From a virus: a stretch of DNA of 26,686 bases. A model generated the notes under the pieces. The model did not search any database. It saw nothing but the letters and a program-made list of their open reading frames with translations, and was not told the DNA's origin. Of this stretch, positions 4,169-12,873 are shown in pieces. A program made the position numbers and the translations under genes. Each line of letters opens with the position of its first letter. Position 1 is the stretch's first letter. Location: the IMG/VR virus record IMGVR_UViG_3300049484_000171, positions 1-26,686 of that record. The stretch is one strand, 5' to 3'.

Positions 4169-4540
4169 ATGGCGAATGACTACGACATCACCGCCCGCAA
4201 CGTCGGGGTCGACGCGATCGCGGCGCTCGGCACCCGCTGGGCGCTTCACACCGCCGACCCCGGCGGCGCGAACAGCGCCACATCCGAGGTCACGGGCGGC
4301 TCTCCGGCCTACGCCCGGAAGGCCGTCGCATGGAACGCGGCCTCCGCCGGCTCCGCGACGCAGAACGGCGACGTGGTGCTGGACGTCCCGGCTGGGACGA
4401 CCGTGACCTACGCCTCGCTGTGGAACACGGCGGGCACCGTGCGCTACTTGAAGAAGGCCGTCACGTCCGAGGCGTTCGGTGCCCAGGGCACGTACACGAT
4501 CAAGGGCACGACCAGCACCCTCGACCTCAACGACGCCTAG
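4169..4540 (+). CDS. Small beta-rich structural protein (head/tail-fibre-like family)
   Basis: A 123-aa protein starting behind an AGAGGTGAGCC SD. The pattern LHTADPGGANSATSEVTGG, then AYARKAVAWNAAS, then VTYASLWNTAG, resembles a family of short phage structural proteins annotated variously as Gp80-like or 'tail fiber' proteins. These keep the elements 'LHTADPG ... EVTGG ... YARK' followed by a strand-rich half. The remainder is predicted beta structure with no catalytic motif. It sits between the decoration protein and the repeat protein, so it is probably a virion surface component. The assignment to that family is from memory of the motif pattern, not from a search. Confidence 0.5.
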   Translation: MANDYDITARNVGVDAIAALGTRWALHTADPGGANSATSEVTGGSPAYARKAVAWNAASAGSATQNGDVVLDVPAGTTVTYASLWNTAGTVRYLKKAVTSEAFGAQGTYTIKGTTSTLDLNDA

Positions 4541-4543
4541 ACC

Positions 4544-6376
4544 ATGGCAGTCGCGCACGACGCAGTCAGCGAGAGCCACACCGGGACGACCGGCGTCGCT
4601 TCCGTTGCGTCGTTCAACTGGAACCATGTGCCGACCGGGACACCCCGGTCGGCGCTGGTGTTCACCGTCGCCATCGGCGCCAACCCGGTGACGGGGGTGA
4701 CCTACGGCGGCACGGCGATGACCGCCGTCCCGTACACCGCCTACGACTCCGACACGGAGCCGGGGTTCGTCCAGGCGTGGTTCCTCGACAACGTGGCGAG
4801 CGGCACGCAGCAGGTCGTCGTCAACCGGACGAACAACACCGTCGTCACCTACGCGACGTGCATGACGCAGACCGCGGCGAAGAAGTGCCAGGTCTACCTC
4901 GCCGGCGTCAAGACCCGCGCCGCCGCCGGCGCCGAGCAGACCGCGGCATCCTCGAGCGCAACCGGCACCGCGACAGCCTGGGCCTCGATGACGCTGGACG
5001 ACGGATCGCCCGGCACCAACAGCATCCGGTACCTCGGCATCTACTCCGGCGCCGCGAGCGTATCGACGGCCAGCACGAACACGACGACGAACGGCGCCAG
5101 CGCACAGATCGACTTCGGCAACTACGTGTTCTTCACGATGCGGGAGACGACGCCGAGCCAAGGGGCCAAGGCGCTCAACATCACCACCGCCATCACGGAC
5201 GATCTCGCCGTCATCGGCCTCGCCGTCCGGGAGGACCCGGACGCCCGCGTCGCCAACGTCACCGCCACGGGCGGCGGGATCGCCACGACACCGGCGACCA
5301 AGGGCGCAACGCTGGCCGGTGCGTTCACCGCAGGCGGCGTGGCCGTCGTCTCGCCCAAGGGCGCACACACCAAGGCCGTGACCGCCACCGGTGGTGGCGT
5401 CCTGACGGGCTCGTCTGCGACCCAGCGCAGCCGCGCCGTCGCGGCCACGGGCGGCGGCGTCCTGACAAGCGCGACGCAGAAGGGCGCGCTGCTGGCCGCG
5501 TCCGCCACCGGGGGCGGGGCGGCGGTCGTCACGGGCGTCAAGGCGATCGTCGACAACCGGAACGCCAGCCTGGTCGCCACTGGCGGAGGCGTGGCCGTCC
5601 TAGCGCCGCGCAAGGGCGCGAGCTCGTCGCCGGCCGACACTGGCGGTGGCGTGGTCGCTGTGAGCGCACGGACGCAGCGTGTGCGCGCCGTCACGGCCAC
5701 CGCGTCCGGCGTGGCGGCTATCACGCCACGCAGCGCGCGGAGCGCGTCAGCGGCGCTCACAGGCGGGGGTGTGGCGACGATCGCGCGCCTGGCCGCCCGG
5801 AAGGCGTCAACGACCGCGACTGGCGGAGGCGTGGCCGCCGTCTCCGTCCGGTCCGCGCGGATCCTGGCCGCCCAACTGTCCGGCGGCGGCGTGCTCACCT
5901 ACGTCGAGACCACCGCGCGCCGCTCGAGCATCGCGGCGACCGGGGGCGGGGCGGCGGTCGTCACGGGCGTCAAGGCGATCGCCACGATCAACCGCGACGC
6001 CAGCATCGTGGCGACGGGCGGCGGCGTGGCCACGGCGACGAGCTCGACCGGCCGCGCGATCGCCGCCTCCGCGACGGGTGCCGGCTCCGCCACGCTGTCC
6101 GTCCGCTCCGCGCGCCAGCTGGCGGCCGCCCTGACTGGCGGAGGATCCGCCGCCCTGGACGCGACGAGCGCCCGCTCTGCATTCCTCGAGGCAACGGGCG
6201 CCGGCGTGGCGTTCGTCGACGGGCACGCAGGAGCGGCCGCGCCGACCATCGGCATGGCCGCGCTGATGCGCATCACCGACGCTGGATCCACCCCGGCGAT
6301 CGAAGCCCCTTCCGGCGTGTCGGTCGTCTCCGTCTCTGACGCCCCGGTCATCACCAGCGCGAGGTTCATTCCATGA
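4544..6376 (+). CDS. Repeat-rich surface/fibre protein: beta-sandwich domain plus ~16 Gly-rich repeats
   Basis: A 610-aa protein. Residues 1-230 read as a jelly-roll-like domain (SALVFTVAIGANP, VTGVTYGGTAMT, GFVQAWFLDNV, VFFTMRETT, AVIGLAVRED) of a kind common in phage appendage proteins. Residues ~239-563 are a run of about 16 degenerate ~20-residue repeats with core ATGGGVA followed by a strand and a basic (S/A)AR-type turn. The last ~47 residues are non-repetitive. It lies between head and connector genes, where head fibres or other capsid-surface proteins are sometimes encoded, and its last codons overlap the next gene's ATG at 6373. No signal peptide or catalytic motif is seen. I do not recognise the full-length family. 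A stalk or solenoid role is inferred from the repeats. Confidence 0.65.
   Translation: MAVAHDAVSESHTGTTGVASVASFNWNHVPTGTPRSALVFTVAIGANPVTGVTYGGTAMTAVPYTAYDSDTEPGFVQAWFLDNVASGTQQVVVNRTNNTVVTYATCMTQTAAKKCQVYLAGVKTRAAAGAEQTAASSSATGTATAWASMTLDDGSPGTNSIRYLGIYSGAASVSTASTNTTTNGASAQIDFGNYVFFTMRETTPSQGAKALNITTAITDDLAVIGLAVREDPDARVANVTATGGGIATTPATKGATLAGAFTAGGVAVVSPKGAHTKAVTATGGGVLTGSSATQRSRAVAATGGGVLTSATQKGALLAASATGGGAAVVTGVKAIVDNRNASLVATGGGVAVLAPRKGASSSPADTGGGVVAVSARTQRVRAVTATASGVAAITPRSARSASAALTGGGVATIARLAARKASTTATGGGVAAVSVRSARILAAQLSGGGVLTYVETTARRSSIAATGGGAAVVTGVKAIATINRDASIVATGGGVATATSSTGRAIAASATGAGSATLSVRSARQLAAALTGGGSAALDATSARSAFLEATGAGVAFVDGHAGAAAPTIGMAALMRITDAGSTPAIEAPSGVSVVSVSDAPVITSARFIP
5258..6232 (+). 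repeat. In-frame array of ~16 degenerate ~60-bp repeats (ATGGGVA units)
   Basis: Successive units translate as ATGGGIATTPATKGA, ATGGGVLTGSSATQ, ATGGGVLTSATQKG, ATGGGAAVVTGVKA, ATGGGVAVLAPRKG, DTGGGVVAVSART, TASGVAAITPRSA, LTGGGVATIARLA, ATGGGVAAVSVRS, LSGGGVLTYVETT, then a second ATGGGAAVVTGVKA, ATGGGVATATSS, ATGAGSATLSVRS, LTGGGSAALDATS and ATGAGVAFVDG, with one weaker early copy (FTAGGVAVVSPKG). Period is about 20 codons, slightly variable. All units stay in frame, so selection acts on the protein. Confidence 0.85.
5507..5981 (+). repeat. Pair of identical 43-bp direct repeats inside the repeat array
   Basis: Positions 5507-5549 and 5939-5981 are identical over 43 bases and encode the same TGGGAAVVTGVKAI segment. 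They are 432 bp (144 codons) apart in an array whose other units have diverged at the DNA level. This suggests a recent segmental duplication or gene conversion. Confidence 0.85.
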
Positions 6377-7281
6377 GGCACCTCGAGATCGAGGTCACGA
6401 ACGCCGACGAACTGCTCGCCACGGAGGCGTACGGCGCGGGCGCGCTGCTCCGCTGGGAGCGCTCGTCCACGGAGGCCGGGACCTACGTGGAGGGCGGAAC
6501 CGAGGCGCTCGTCGCCGGGACCACGCTGTACGACGTGTGGGACGCGGCGGGCATCGAGACGACCTGGTACCGCACCCGCATCAGCAACGCCGGCGGTACG
6601 ACGTTCTCCGCCTACTCCTCGCCGCGGTCGCCCGTCACGTCGGTCACGAGCGTGGCGCAGGTACGGGCGCTGGTGTCCACGAGCATGTCCGACGCGGACC
6701 TCCAGGGCGTCATCGACCGCGAGGAGGCGGCCCTGGCGCGCCAGGTGACGGCGCTGGCGGGCGATCGGACGCAGACATGGTTCGTCGGGGACCAGTCGGC
6801 CATGGGCCTCTACCGCGACAGTCTGACCACGCTCCCGTTCTCCGGGCGCGGCCCGTTCATGGGCGCATGGATGACCGTCGACCGCATGGGACCGCTGTCG
6901 CTCCTGCGCCCGACCGACGCCGTCGTGGTCACCGACAACGGGGTCACCGTCGCCGATGACGACATTCGCCTGCTGCGCGGCGGGACGCAGGTCGAGCGGG
7001 CGTCCGGCGGCTGGCAGGGGCCGATCGTAACGGTCGCCTACACGCCCAACGACGCGCTCGAGGTCGCCCGCGTGGTGATCGAGCTGTGCCGGCTGACGCT
7101 CACCGAGACCGGCTACCAGTCCGAGCGGATCGGCGAGTACCAGTACGACCGGGGCGCGAAGCCTGCAGGCGCCGACCCGCGCCGCGCACTGGTGCGCTCC
7201 CTCATGCCGCATCCGGCCAAGGGCTCGATGCGCATCCGGACCTCGTCCGAGGACGACCGGATCGGGGCGGTGACGCCGTGA
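6373..7281 (+). CDS. Head-tail connector (adaptor) with N-terminal Ig/FN3-like domain
   Basis: A 302-aa protein with two parts. Residues ~1-90 have the pattern of an FN3/Ig-like fold (GALLRWERSSTEAGTYVEG, then TTWYRTRISNAGGTTFSAYSS). Residues ~92-290 match the helical head-tail adaptor type: VAQVRALVSTSMSDADLQGVI, then a helix DREEAALARQVTAL, strands in the middle, and a late helix (NDALEVARVVIELCRLTLTETGYQSERIGEYQY) typical of connectors that bind under the portal. Adaptors are usually 100-180 aa, so this one is long because of the fused domain. The start overlaps the repeat-protein stop. Gene order (connector, stopper, gp10-like, terminator) supports the call. Confidence 0.72.
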   Translation: MRHLEIEVTNADELLATEAYGAGALLRWERSSTEAGTYVEGGTEALVAGTTLYDVWDAAGIETTWYRTRISNAGGTTFSAYSSPRSPVTSVTSVAQVRALVSTSMSDADLQGVIDREEAALARQVTALAGDRTQTWFVGDQSAMGLYRDSLTTLPFSGRGPFMGAWMTVDRMGPLSLLRPTDAVVVTDNGVTVADDDIRLLRGGTQVERASGGWQGPIVTVAYTPNDALEVARVVIELCRLTLTETGYQSERIGEYQYDRGAKPAGADPRRALVRSLMPHPAKGSMRIRTSSEDDRIGAVTP

Positions 7282-8701: not shown

Positions 8702-9733
8702 ATGGTCGCCACGATCAACCCGAGCGCCATCTTCTCGGGCGCGCCAGTCAGCATCACCTACGGCGGCGTCGAGTGCGGCGCCACGACCGAGGTGCCGAAG
8801 CTCAGCCTCGAGGTCGAGGCCGGCGGGCCGGAGTTCACCAACGCAGGCGGGCCCGTGCGCAACACGCGCATCACGCGCCGGATCATCCCGAGCCTCGAGC
8901 TCACCGTGAACGAGATGACCGCGCAGAAGATCGGGTGGGCCCTGCCGGGCGCCACCGCAACCTCGAGCTCGTCCGTCGGCGTGCCGAAGACCGGCCTGGA
9001 CACCACGCTCGCCGCGGACCCGGCCCTCGGCGCCACCACCCTCAAGGTGACGAGCGTCACGACCGTCGCGGTCAACGACTTCGTGCGGGTCGCCGCTCCT
9101 GGCGTGGCCGCCACGGAGGCCAACAGCGAGGTGCTCAAGGTCACGCGCGTCGGCACACTCGGCAGCGGCGGCACGGGCATCGACGTCGAGAACAGCGCCG
9201 GCGGCGGCTGCCTCCTCGACCACGGCGCCACCGACGAGATCAAGACGGTCGCCGGGACCTACCTGGCAGCTCCGGCGCTCGCCGGAGCGACGAACCTCAA
9301 GGTCGACGCCGTGGCCGACCTGGCGCCCGGCGACATCGTGCGGGTCGGCTACGCCGGCCACTACGAGACGCGCGTCCTGAGCGCCGTCGGGACGCTCGGG
9401 CCCTCCGGCACCGGGATCACGTTCGTCATCCCGCTGACCCGCGACCACGCGGTCGACGAGTGGGTCGTCAAGGTGACGGCGATCGGCGGGACCACGATCC
9501 GGCCGGCGATCGGGCGCATCGCCAGCGCCGCGTACCAGAACCTCGTGCTCACCGACATGGGCGCGGACGGCGCCACGCTCATCGTCACGCTCGAGAACGC
9601 CATGTCGGCCGAGAACCAGGAGCTCTCGTTCGACGACGACCCGGCCAACCCGCTCGGGTTGACCCTCAAGTTCACCGGCCACTACCACGAGAGTACCCCG
9701 ACCCAGGTGCCGCTCACGCTGCAGATGGCCTGA
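8702..9733 (+). CDS. Major tail (tube) protein with a duplicated inserted domain
   Basis: A 343-aa protein. The outer parts, residues 1-~95 (NPSAIFSGAPVSITYGGVE, PEFTNAGGPVRNTRITRRI, LELTVNEMTAQKIGWAL) and ~262-343 (TTIRPAIGRIASAAYQNLVL, then DDDPANPLGLTLKFTG), form the tube-protein frame expected to stack as hexameric rings. Between them are two related ~75-residue modules, ~101-179 and ~186-258. Each has an LAA..ALGAT-LKV opening, an N/GD-VRV strand, VGTLG.(S/G)GTGI and a closing strand. The modules probably project from the tube surface. Position directly before the chaperone pair and tape measure is canonical. An average tube protein is 150-250 aa, so the insertion accounts for the extra length. 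Confidence 0.82.
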   Translation: MVATINPSAIFSGAPVSITYGGVECGATTEVPKLSLEVEAGGPEFTNAGGPVRNTRITRRIIPSLELTVNEMTAQKIGWALPGATATSSSSVGVPKTGLDTTLAADPALGATTLKVTSVTTVAVNDFVRVAAPGVAATEANSEVLKVTRVGTLGSGGTGIDVENSAGGGCLLDHGATDEIKTVAGTYLAAPALAGATNLKVDAVADLAPGDIVRVGYAGHYETRVLSAVGTLGPSGTGITFVIPLTRDHAVDEWVVKVTAIGGTTIRPAIGRIASAAYQNLVLTDMGADGATLIVTLENAMSAENQELSFDDDPANPLGLTLKFTGHYHESTPTQVPLTLQMA

Positions 9734-9737
9734 TCCA

Positions 9738-10229
9738 ATGGCCGAGCGAAGCCCGGAGGATGTCGCGGCCGGCATCCTCCGGATCGCCGTCAACGGCACG
9801 GTGCGCGAGGTCCCGACGCTCAAGGCGAAGTACGTCGGGGCGTGGGCGGAGCAGGTGCTCCTCACCGATGCCGACGGCAAGGCCGTCAAGATCAAGCCGC
9901 TCGAGGAGTGGACGTCGTTCGACGTGGCGCAGCTGGCCGGGCCCGCCGTGGACCGCCTCATCGATCTCATCTGCGCCTACGACCGCACGGGCGCGCTCGG
10001 CGGGCGAGAGTGGCTCAGCGAGAACGCCGACCCGCTGCAGCTGCAGGAGGCGCTCAGCGCCATGCTTGGCAACGCGTTCCCTTTAGCCGACAGCCCGGAG
10101 GCGCTGACCGCGACGGTCATGGGCCAGGTGGCCGCCGGGTTGAGCCAGCCGAGTTCTACGAGTGGGCGCTCGCGGTCTGGCACCTCGACCCGGACGAGCT
10201 CCGGGCGCGCCTCGACCCCGAGCAGCTGA
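9738..10229 (+). CDS. Tail assembly chaperone, short (unshifted) product
   Basis: A 163-aa product read without frameshifting, starting 5 bases after the tube gene's stop. The N-terminal ~140 residues look genuine (ILRIAVNGTVREVPTLKAKY, TSFDVAQLAGPAVDRLIDL, LQLQEALSAMLGNAF). The last ~25 residues are Ser/Arg/Thr low-complexity and appear to be out-of-frame readout of the overlapping downstream gene. In lambda-like phages, G and GT made this way coat and load the tape measure. Position between tube protein and tape measure and the open overlapping -1 frame are the supporting evidence. Confidence 0.8.
   Translation: MAERSPEDVAAGILRIAVNGTVREVPTLKAKYVGAWAEQVLLTDADGKAVKIKPLEEWTSFDVAQLAGPAVDRLIDLICAYDRTGALGGREWLSENADPLQLQEALSAMLGNAFPLADSPEALTATVMGQVAAGLSQPSSTSGRSRSGTSTRTSSGRASTPSS
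10079..10085 (+). promoter_or_regulatory. Candidate -1 slippery heptamer CCCTTTA
   Basis: In the chaperone frame the codons read C CCT TTA, a canonical X XXY YYZ heptamer. Slipping back one base re-pairs CCC and TTT and continues in the frame of the downstream chaperone half, which has no stop from here to 10493. TTA is also a rare codon for this GC-rich DNA. A caveat is that G/C-at-third-position bias stays with the first frame until about 10,145-10,150, so either the stretch is dual-coding or the real slip site is nearer there, around 10,135-10,150. Confidence 0.55.
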
Positions 10230-10495
10230 CCGTGCTCTGGACGGCCGGCCAGGCGCGCATCGCTCGGGAGAGCCGGGAGCGGCTCGTCGAGCTGTACGTC
10301 GGCGTCCGGGACGGGTCAGTCGCCGGCGAGGCCACGCTCGGCCGAGCGAAGTGGAAGGGCGGCTTTCAGGCGCCCGCCTACGTCCGCTCGGCGCAGAAGG
10401 CCGAGCCGGTCAGGCGCTCGCCCGCGATCCGCGACAGGGCCCTCGCCGAGCTCGGCGCCATGTTCCCCGGCATCGTCCGGAGGGGTGACTCGTGA
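10085..10495 (+). CDS. Tail assembly chaperone, C-terminal part made by -1 frameshift
   Basis: This frame has no convincing start of its own near its first coding-like residues. From about 10,150 it reads PAEFYEWALAVWHLDPDEL, then a helix EQLTVLWTAGQARIARES, ending GAMFPGIVRRGDS, with strong G/C third-position bias. Joined to the first 116 codons at the CCCTTTA site it gives a ~252-aa GT-type product. An independent start (for example GTG at 10232) is possible but would discard the best-conserved-looking part. The stop overlaps the tape-measure GTG (10492-10495). The functional role is that of lambda GT: bridging tape measure and tube protein during tail assembly. Confidence 0.72.
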   Translation, partial: SRQPGGADRDGHGPGGRRVEPAEFYEWALAVWHLDPDELRARLDPEQLTVLWTAGQARIARESRERLVELYVGVRDGSVAGEATLGRAKWKGGFQAPAYVRSAQKAEPVRRSPAIRDRALAELGAMFPGIVRRGDS

Positions 10496-12873
10496 GCGTG
10501 CTCGCAGACATCTTCGGGTCCGTCCGGCTGAACCTCGACACCGGGGAGTTCGAGGTCGCGGCCGCCAAGGCGGCGGACAAGACCGGCGCCTCGATGGGCC
10601 AGCGCATGAGCGGCAAGCTCGGCAAGGCGCTCGCCGGCGGGATCGGCGCCGGCATCGGCCTCGCGTTCGCCTCCGCCTCCCAGGGAGCGCTCGAGATCAA
10701 CGCCGCCATGGCCGAGTTCACGGCGCAGACCGGGGCCAGCGACGCCCAGGCCAAGGAGTTCGAGAAGACCCTGGCCGGGCTGAACAAGGCGAACGTCCAG
10801 GGCATCCCCGAGATCAGTAACACGCTGATCGCACTCAAGCAGCACTTCAACCTCGCGGGCAAGGAGGCCGAGGCGGCAGCGTCCGCGTTCCTCGACTACT
10901 CCCGCGTCGTCGGCACGGACGCTGCCACCGCGGCGGGGTCGTTCGACGAGCTCGTCGACGCCGGCGTCATCAGCGTCGAGCAGATGATCCCGTTCATGGA
11001 CCAGCTGGCGGCCAGCCACCAGAAGTACGGCGTGTCGATCCAGGACACGACCGCGGCCCTGGTCAAGTTCGCCCCGGCCATGACCGCCTTCGGGATCTCG
11101 ACGAACGACGCCCTGGCCTACATCAACCTGTTCAGCGAGATGGGCCTCAACGCGGAGACCTCGACTAAGGCGTTCAACCTCGCGCTGACCAAGGTCAAGA
11201 GCCCCGACGAGCTCAAGCGCCTGGTCGCCGACATCAGCAACACCGAGGACCCGTTCCTCCGGGCGCAGAAGGCGTCCGACCTGTTCGGCAAGCGCGCCGG
11301 CGTCCAGCTGGCGAACGCGCTCAAGCCGGGGTCCGGCGGCATCGAGGCGTGGGGCATGACCGCGGAGGAGGCGGCCGGCACCGTCACGACGCTTGGCGAC
11401 GCGCTCGACAACAGCCTCGGGAACAAGGCGAAGCTCATCCTCAAGCAGCTCAGCGGGGCCCTGGCCGAAGCCGGGACGAGCATGGGCGACCTCCTGATGA
11501 TCGCCGCCGTCATGGGGCCGGGGATGACCAAGGCGATCGTCGGCGGCCTCGGCGGGCTTGCGGGCGTCCTGACGAAGAGCCTCATTCCCAAGGTCTCCGC
11601 GGCGATCCTAGCGACGGGCCCCGGCGCATCGCTCGCCGCCTCCGGTGTGGGCACCGCGGCCGGGACAGCGATGGGCGCGGCCATCCCGATCGCCCTGGTC
11701 GCAGCCGCCGGCGTCGGGATCGCCCTGGCGTTCAAGAGCATGGTCCTGGACCCAGGCCTGCAGCAGCAGTCCCGCGACATCGGCACCGCGGTCGGGAAGC
11801 AGATCGCCACAGGCGCCACGGACGAGCTCGAGATCAGCAAGAAGGCCATCGAGCAGGGCATCACGGACATCAACAACCTGCCGCTCGGCGGGTTCCTATA
11901 CGGCGACCAGGTGCGGGACCTGACGACGCAACTCGACGCGGTGAACGCGGAGATCGCTGCCCGGGCAGCCAAGGGCGGCGAGACGGTCGGCGCGGCCGCG
12001 ACGGAGGGCGTCGCCACCGGGATCGAGACCGCGGCGCCGGTTGTCGAGATCGCCGCCGACAAGGTCGTCGCCACGTTCGGGACCAACATGGCGGGCGTCA
12101 AGGCCGCGATGGGCAAGGTCGGGTTCGAGGGCATGTCGGCGCTGGCGCAGGGGATCACGGCCGCCCGCCAGGCGCCGCTAGACGCGTTCACCAGCCTCAA
12201 GGACATGCTCAAGAACGCGATGACGCCGCAGGCGGAGCAGCTGCGCCTCCACGGCCAGCTTCTGAGCAAGACCCTCGCCGCCGGCCTTCGGTCCGGGGAC
12301 CCCGCGGTGCGGGCGCAGGCACAGGCCACGGCCCAGGCGATCGCGAACCGCCTGGCGGAGCTCTCGCAGTCGGGCGGCAAGGCCGGCCGGGAGAGCATGA
12401 AGGCGCTCAACGCCGGGATCCGCAGCAAGATCCCGGAGGTCCGGGCCGCGTCCCTGGCGGCCAAGAAGGCGCTCGACGAGAAGCTCGCCGCGGCCAAGGG
12501 ATCCGCGAGCACGGCCGGCAAGAACGCGGGCGCCGCGTTCTCGAGCGGCGTGGCCAGCGGCGTCGGGTCGACCGGCTTCAAGTTCAACGGATCCTTCTCG
12601 TTCCGGGGGGGGATGAAGGCGCTGGCGTCCGGTGGGCCGATCACGGCTCCCAGCTGGGTCGGCGAGGACGGGCCAGAGGTGTACGTGCCCGAGCGCGCTG
12701 GCCGGATCCTCAGCCATGAGGACGCGATGGCGGCCGTCTCCGCTGGCGCCGCTGGCGGACGGTCCGCCGGCGGGCCCATCACCGTCAACGTCTACAACCC
12801 GGCGCCCGAGCCGGCATCGACGTCCACGCGGCGCGAGCTCCGGAAGCTCGCCCTGTCCGGGAGCGCGGCATGA
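10492..12873 (+). CDS. Tape measure protein
   Basis: A 793-aa protein that sets tail length and is probably ejected into the host envelope. At about 0.15 nm per residue it would give a tail near 120 nm. GTG at 10492 is preceded by GGAGGGG. The N-terminal helical region carries hallmark features (SVRLNLDTGEFEVAAAKAAD, a Gly-rich hydrophobic helix ~43-67, then TGASDAQAKEFEKTL and the 'GTDAATAAGSFDELVDAG' block of PhageMin_Tail-type proteins). Hydrophobic stretches at ~333-360 and ~370-415 could insert in membranes. The C-terminus has the typical ALASGGPITAPSWVGEDGPE, then VYVPERAGRIL and PITVNVYNPAPEPAS. It is short for an actinophage tape measure but intact. Confidence 0.93.
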   Translation: MSVLADIFGSVRLNLDTGEFEVAAAKAADKTGASMGQRMSGKLGKALAGGIGAGIGLAFASASQGALEINAAMAEFTAQTGASDAQAKEFEKTLAGLNKANVQGIPEISNTLIALKQHFNLAGKEAEAAASAFLDYSRVVGTDAATAAGSFDELVDAGVISVEQMIPFMDQLAASHQKYGVSIQDTTAALVKFAPAMTAFGISTNDALAYINLFSEMGLNAETSTKAFNLALTKVKSPDELKRLVADISNTEDPFLRAQKASDLFGKRAGVQLANALKPGSGGIEAWGMTAEEAAGTVTTLGDALDNSLGNKAKLILKQLSGALAEAGTSMGDLLMIAAVMGPGMTKAIVGGLGGLAGVLTKSLIPKVSAAILATGPGASLAASGVGTAAGTAMGAAIPIALVAAAGVGIALAFKSMVLDPGLQQQSRDIGTAVGKQIATGATDELEISKKAIEQGITDINNLPLGGFLYGDQVRDLTTQLDAVNAEIAARAAKGGETVGAAATEGVATGIETAAPVVEIAADKVVATFGTNMAGVKAAMGKVGFEGMSALAQGITAARQAPLDAFTSLKDMLKNAMTPQAEQLRLHGQLLSKTLAAGLRSGDPAVRAQAQATAQAIANRLAELSQSGGKAGRESMKALNAGIRSKIPEVRAASLAAKKALDEKLAAAKGSASTAGKNAGAAFSSGVASGVGSTGFKFNGSFSFRGGMKALASGGPITAPSWVGEDGPEVYVPERAGRILSHEDAMAAVSAGAAGGRSAGGPITVNVYNPAPEPASTSTRRELRKLALSGSAA

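Follow-up and report, generated by a model that had tools for sequence, protein, structure and literature searches.

A 20-residue-repeat protein paired with a neck-whisker-type gene, most likely the adjustable stalk of a little-known phage surface appendage

Introduction

Few phages are known to have neck appendages, and the genes that encode them are mostly annotated "hypothetical" or "head protein". The DNA considered here is a stretch of 26,686 nucleotides, IMG/VR virus record IMGVR_UViG_3300049484_000171 (hereafter, the window), in which a gene related to known neck components (the partner, and putative anchor) stands directly ahead of a gene for a protein with a long array of 20-residue repeats.

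The neck whiskers of Shigella phage Sf14 consist of gp30 and gp31 and are attached to the adaptor (PMC11821841). Both the Sf14 structure (PDB 9C39) and that of the Bas63 connector (9MT4) contain a chain of about 110 residues homologous to the putative anchor; relative to these, the window adds a putative stalk of 20-residue repeats with an N-terminal domain of its own. ORF55 of FelixO1 falls in the anchor's family, but no repeat protein adjoins it, and gp80 of phage GP4 ("fiber I"; PDB 8JOU) belongs to PF23140, the Pfam family of the anchor. T4 fibritin-type whiskers are a long alpha-helical coiled coil, whereas the repeat protein is predicted to be all-beta, with no helix of four residues or more. 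The neck fibres of Anabaena phage A-1(L) (gp82-gp81-gp80) are similar in outline, each a long row of repeated beads whose last and larger member bears a carbohydrate-binding module; in A-1(L), however, the row consists of some 14 trimers of a separate protein (PMC10966104), whereas the 20-residue units of the window lie within one chain.

Two further proteins invite comparison. Curli CsgA of Pontibacter korlensis (8C50) resembles the predicted model of the array in having two short strands and two turns per stacked unit, but the array lacks the curlin repeat (PF07012; nothing in Pfam matches even at an E of 1) and is encoded in a phage structural cluster. Magritte gp27 resembles the window's repeat protein in gene order, in the anchor-type genes upstream, in a phage N-domain and in a C-terminal array of 20-residue units, and differs from it in an inserted GDPD enzyme and in a unit of the SGSGxLxA type. 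A literature search covering the Bas63 neck, curli-like phage fibres and 20-residue neck repeats returned nothing on this system, which is not in itself proof of novelty.

Results and discussion

Architecture of the repeat protein

The preliminary description of this DNA, made by reading the sequence, had reported about 16 Gly-rich 20-residue repeats of no recognised family behind a jelly-roll-like domain, and all three points are borne out. The protein consists of a beta-sandwich region of about 230 residues, 16 units and a 46-residue tail (Table 1). The units follow the Gly-rich consensus xAsxtATGGGVAtvxxxxAR, with anchor positions at residues 242, 262, and so on to 551; the spacing is exactly 20 in 13 of 15 intervals, and 24 and 25 in the others. 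Over residues 229-570, BLOSUM62 autocorrelation reaches 0.97, 0.86 and 0.67 at lags 20, 40 and 60, compared with a maximum of 0.29 over all lags in 500 shuffles. Pfam, PHROG and PDB sequence searches over the array gave no family match, and a PDB sequence search with the repeat protein yielded nothing meaningful. Used whole as a query for related loci, the protein found none, and tblastn against phages found nothing either, the likely reason being that low-complexity filtering hides the array.

Table 1. Features of the anchor and repeat-protein pair in the window.
Feature	Coordinates	Strand	Details
Whisker-like anchor protein	4169..4540	+	123 aa; phrog_240 "head protein" / PF23140 Gp80; from profile and fold
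Repeat protein, whole ORF	4544..6376	+	610 aa; ATG start; 0 internal stops
N-terminal beta-sandwich (jelly-roll/CBM-like) module	4544..5233	+	residues 1-230; from profile and predicted structure
Array, 16 units in 3 blocks (5, 7 and 4 units)	5249..6235	+	unit start taken 6 residues before TGGG
Long unit 5, end of block 1	5507..5578	+	24 aa; VDNRNAS linker motif
Long unit 12, end of block 2	5939..6013	+	25 aa; TINRDAS linker motif
C-terminal tail of repeat protein	6236..6376	+	about 46 aa

At the DNA level, the copies in the window's array are old and diverged, too much so for detection by Tandem Repeats Finder, with the exception of one stretch in the long units: the 46-nt segments 5504-5549 and 5936-5981, which lie 432 nt apart, are 98% identical, a recent-looking conversion or duplication inside the array. 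The long units of relatives measure 22-26 residues and often carry ENH(D/N)xS, where those of the window carry NR(N/D)AS. Because these linker motifs recur, and because a motif akin to ENH(D/N)xS often precedes the first unit in relatives, we regard the array as built of blocks. The C-terminal tail ends in PVITSARFIP both here and in L002 (IMGVR_UViG_3300046490_000097), the nearest whole relative, where it lies directly ahead of a connector-type gene.

The N-terminal domain is predicted to be all-beta, with a pLDDT of about 76-96 at residues 21-120 and lower values beyond. Residues 1-186 match the minor tail protein profile phrog_2106 (E 1.9e-6), and the corresponding domains of L017, L046 and L197 likewise match minor tail families (phrog_2106/phrog_553). 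In VIA-align comparisons, the model resembles the C-terminal domain of a GH86 agarase (8h97; Z 9.1, rmsd 2.7 A across 108 residues); the prophage proteins XepA (6i56; Z 8.0) and YomS are further matches. Among the fold matches are also jelly-roll capsid proteins, P3 of PRD1/PR772, at just E 0.05 and Z of about 6; because these values are so weak, we do not take the likeness as evidence of a capsid function, and that assignment was set aside.

The partner gene and its neck homologues

The partner gene stops 3 bases ahead of the repeat-protein gene. Its product matches phrog_240 at E 3.2e-19 and PF23140 at E 5.4e-8 (33.7 bits against a cut-off of 27), and its profile finds chains of two solved phage necks, 9c39_K from Sf14 (E 6e-5) and 9mt4_I from the Bas63 connector (E 1.5e-4). 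The AlphaFold2 model of the partner (pLDDT 91.5) points to the same maps, with Foldseek matches to 9mt4_K at E 1.5e-7 and 9c39_K at E 1.6e-6, and TM scores of 0.79/0.90 against 9mt4_L. The profile match to 8jou_a of the Ralstonia podophage GP4 is sub-threshold (E 0.11), and matches to gasdermin along a stretch of 43 residues (E about 0.01) were dismissed as chance. The matching 9c39 chain is most likely the Sf14 whisker protein gp31, an assignment made from size, gene order and homology to FelixO1 (whose ORF55, 110 residues long like the PDB chain and encoded by the second gene past the portal, the place that gp31 takes in Sf14, matches phrog_240 at E 6e-29) and not from the PDB label.

The anchor family is present in 732 isolate phage records. 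In Gordonia phage Kenna and Mycobacterium phage Krueger, distant homologues of the partner are encoded among minor tail genes; in some phages, then, the anchor may occupy another site. Krueger gp29 (NC_051601) and Kenna gp31 (NC_048141) are annotated "head protein" after phrog_240 at these minor tail positions, a name that probably misleads, since the members of the family with solved structures belong to phage necks.

Repeat arrays regularly follow the partner gene

To collect relatives of the array, we scanned IMG/VR for DNA in which two runs of TGGGV codons are spaced by 60 nt, and obtained 41 stretches that reduce to about 20 distinct contigs with true TGGGV arrays. When this pattern was applied to 84,980 genomes of bacteria and archaea, it picked out 68 loci with no convincing array after repeat-profile scoring; those that were read were simple GGV/GV repeats, with L101 borderline. 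A DUF2807 match in L029, whose E of 3e-5 equals the cut-off, was set aside, as it spans repeat units only. Defining the TGGGV family by at least 8 units in a 20-residue register downstream of the partner, we find 16 such units in the window. The measured arrays hold 8 to 18 units, some of these counts being minima from cut contigs, and the earlier supposition that unit number could vary among related phages is thereby supported. In L143, two adjacent 60-nt units are identical, which points to a recent unit duplication.

Every TGGGV contig with enough flank has a homologue of the whisker-like partner upstream of the array gene, at 65-91% identity. A scan with the partner alignment returned 415 viral loci, the best 80 of which provide the pairing counts. 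In the close partner subfamily among these 80, each of the 23 loci that extend 1.5 kb or more downstream has an array there; 17 were flagged automatically, and the TGGGV/period-20 array of L128, L133, L134, L137, L140 and L158 was recognised otherwise. In the distant subfamily (again within the best 80 of 415), about half of the loci, 22 of 41, have downstream a period-20 protein built of a different unit, of types such as VSGxGxVxxTGRKxxxx and SGNGxxxxxGxKxxxx. Around the partner genes of the best 80 loci, period-20 ORFs make up 42 of 293 downstream ORFs versus 4 of 286 upstream, figures that include phylogenetically related loci and thus do not count independent events. The whisker-like gene is a near-obligate upstream partner of the TGGGV array, and 20-residue arrays of unrelated sequence occupy the same slot in many phages; the partner gene and these same-slot arrays both go beyond what the preliminary description had contained.

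A different kind of repeat was seen in L182, where a nearly perfect 23-residue leucine-rich-type repeat (FTGDLSGWTLPTGLVHLYLYSNS) occupies the slot of the array, about 700 nt past the whisker-like gene.

Predicted fold of the array

The AlphaFold2 model of the array gives each unit two strands of about 6 residues, with turns at the GGG and at the variable segment. Its best VIA-align match is curli CsgA (8c50_A; Z 24.5 over 307 residues, rmsd 9.0, for a model with pLDDT of about 60), followed by the S-layer protein RsaA and other beta-helical proteins. Foldseek against the PDB returned nothing with E below 0.05, placing 8c50 at E 0.32. Given this pLDDT and the non-significant Foldseek values, we treat a curli-like beta-solenoid with two strands per unit as a working model and not as a result. 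On that model, 16 units at 4.8 A per coil would give a rod of about 8 nm.

A mobile pair with an exchangeable N-terminal module

In the window, portal, scaffold, major capsid protein (MCP) and a small phrog_24894 protein precede the pair, and head closure, neck1 and tail terminator follow it, so that the earlier placement of the repeat protein between head and connector genes stands. The pair is not confined to such a setting. In L017 the partner is 91% identical to that of the window (90% by tblastn) and the N-domain 77% identical, in the company of an unrelated MCP, which rules out a tie to one capsid type. The pair lies elsewhere in the structural cluster in L027, L050, L053 and L055, and in L053 and L055 it is apart from the head genes. 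Anchor and repeat gene thus behave as a mobile cassette that moves between phages with unrelated capsids.

The N-terminal module is itself exchangeable. Array genes that abut the partner (gap of at most 223 nt) have 130-250 residues ahead of the first unit, or 842 in L158, whose array protein carries three phage tail collar domains; where the gap is at least 640 nt, little sequence precedes the array and separate small genes occupy the gap. In this comparison the values for L128 and L136 come out too high, having been read from stop to stop; L189, with a weak array, is an exception. In the isolate Microbacterium phage Magritte, which has the gene order of the window and its pair between MCP and neck genes, a GDPD phosphodiesterase is inserted between the N-domain and array of gp27. 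The 20-residue period is weak as a whole-protein average in Magritte gp27 and Kenna gp32, and the Magritte array was read from its sequence. Two whisker-like genes, gp25 and gp26, stand in tandem ahead of gp27 in Magritte (L208, 7639-8348).

In L002 the N-domain is absent. The interval between its whisker-like gene and array (9726-11466) holds a 142-aa ORF, an HNH endonuclease-like ORF (10147-10692) and two small ORFs, and looks as if it had been entered by a homing endonuclease. The corresponding interval of L143 contains a 396-aa ORF that resembles, by eye, a BNR/sialidase-type beta-propeller, and the protein would, on the same visual reading, fill the slot of the N-terminal module in trans.

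In other relatives the array is joined to a neck protein: it runs on into a tail terminator domain, phrog_17840, in L051/L149 and L138 (E 3.5e-15, 7.4e-15 and 2.8e-14). A separate gene of L149 corresponds to the N-domain that is fused in L138 (62.5% identity over 215 aa, E 1e-64). Such fusions suggest a physical link between N-domain, array and neck, the array having its C-terminal end at the neck.

Site and proposed organisation of the appendage

Since 20-residue arrays lie just after a neck-whisker gene across many unrelated phages, we conclude that the repeat protein most probably serves as a stalk of adjustable length in a surface appendage about which little is known; the fibre or stalk role proposed at the outset, now backed by the anchor pairing and the variation in unit number, remains the best reading. 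The earlier "capsid-region" label is probably not correct as the final site: because the partner matches a chain from solved necks and the array is fused to the tail terminator in two relatives, a neck or neck-proximal appendage is likelier than a head decoration.

More specifically, we think it probable that the repeat protein supplies stalk and adhesin of a two-part virion appendage that is anchored through the whisker-type partner. The product of 4169-4540, of the phrog_240 whisker type found as a neck component in Sf14 and Bas63, would be the anchor. The Gly-rich array would form a rigid all-beta rod, each unit contributing two short beta-strands, a tight turn at TGGG and a second short turn, and gain or loss of units would set the length of the rod. 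Its C-terminal end would point towards the virion neck and the N-terminal beta-sandwich outward, where the latter probably contacts cell-surface glycans.

The main rival, given that distant Mycobacterium and Gordonia anchors lie among minor tail genes, is that the same pair is attached to the far end of the tail and acts as a conventional side fibre. The minor tail matches of the N-domain (phrog_2106 and phrog_553), the position of the Kenna and Krueger homologues, the separation of the pair from head genes in L053 and L055 and the tail-collar domains of L158 are all in keeping with such a fibre. We nevertheless consider it unlikely: the window and Magritte both have the pair between MCP and neck genes, relatives have the array fused to the tail terminator, and the nearest solved homologues of the partner are neck chains. 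A fibre or decoration on the capsid surface, comparable to Hoc or to the head fibres of phi29, would account for a pair encoded directly after the MCP and the small phrog_24894 protein, and for the PHROGs name "head protein"; this name is an annotation, however, the solved members of the family come from neck maps, and the pair is bound to no single capsid type, so that we judge a head location quite improbable. That the protein is instead non-structural or disordered, a low-complexity product maintained by the mutational bias of a G+C-rich genome, might be suggested by its Ala/Gly/Thr/Val-rich composition, its G+C-rich DNA and the low confidence of the array model, but is very hard to reconcile with an exact 20-residue register across 16 units despite diverged DNA, long-unit motifs conserved across phages, near-obligate pairing with a structural gene, and arrays of unrelated sequence that keep the period of 20.

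Beyond the neck-anchored stalk proposed for the window, we tentatively raise the broader idea, which may well prove too sweeping, of a widespread unnamed class of appendages, in which a whisker-type neck anchor would be regularly paired with a length-variable beta-solenoid stalk, a curli-like viral rod whose units would keep to 20 residues while their sequences become unrecognisably different and which would bear interchangeable adhesins or wall-degrading enzymes, fused or separate. A rule that joins whisker gene and 20-residue-repeat stalk could allow many unannotated structural genes to be named, and the N-terminal module would stand out as a candidate second host-contact protein, separate from the tail tip. 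That the period stays at 20 residues while the sequence turns over almost completely also poses a clean question for structural biology.

One neighbouring gene deserves mention. The gene after the array (6373-7281) encodes a 302-aa protein with no family match, in which, by eye, the first 90 or so residues are fibronectin-III-like and the remainder is head-tail-connector-like; the appendage might dock on this protein.
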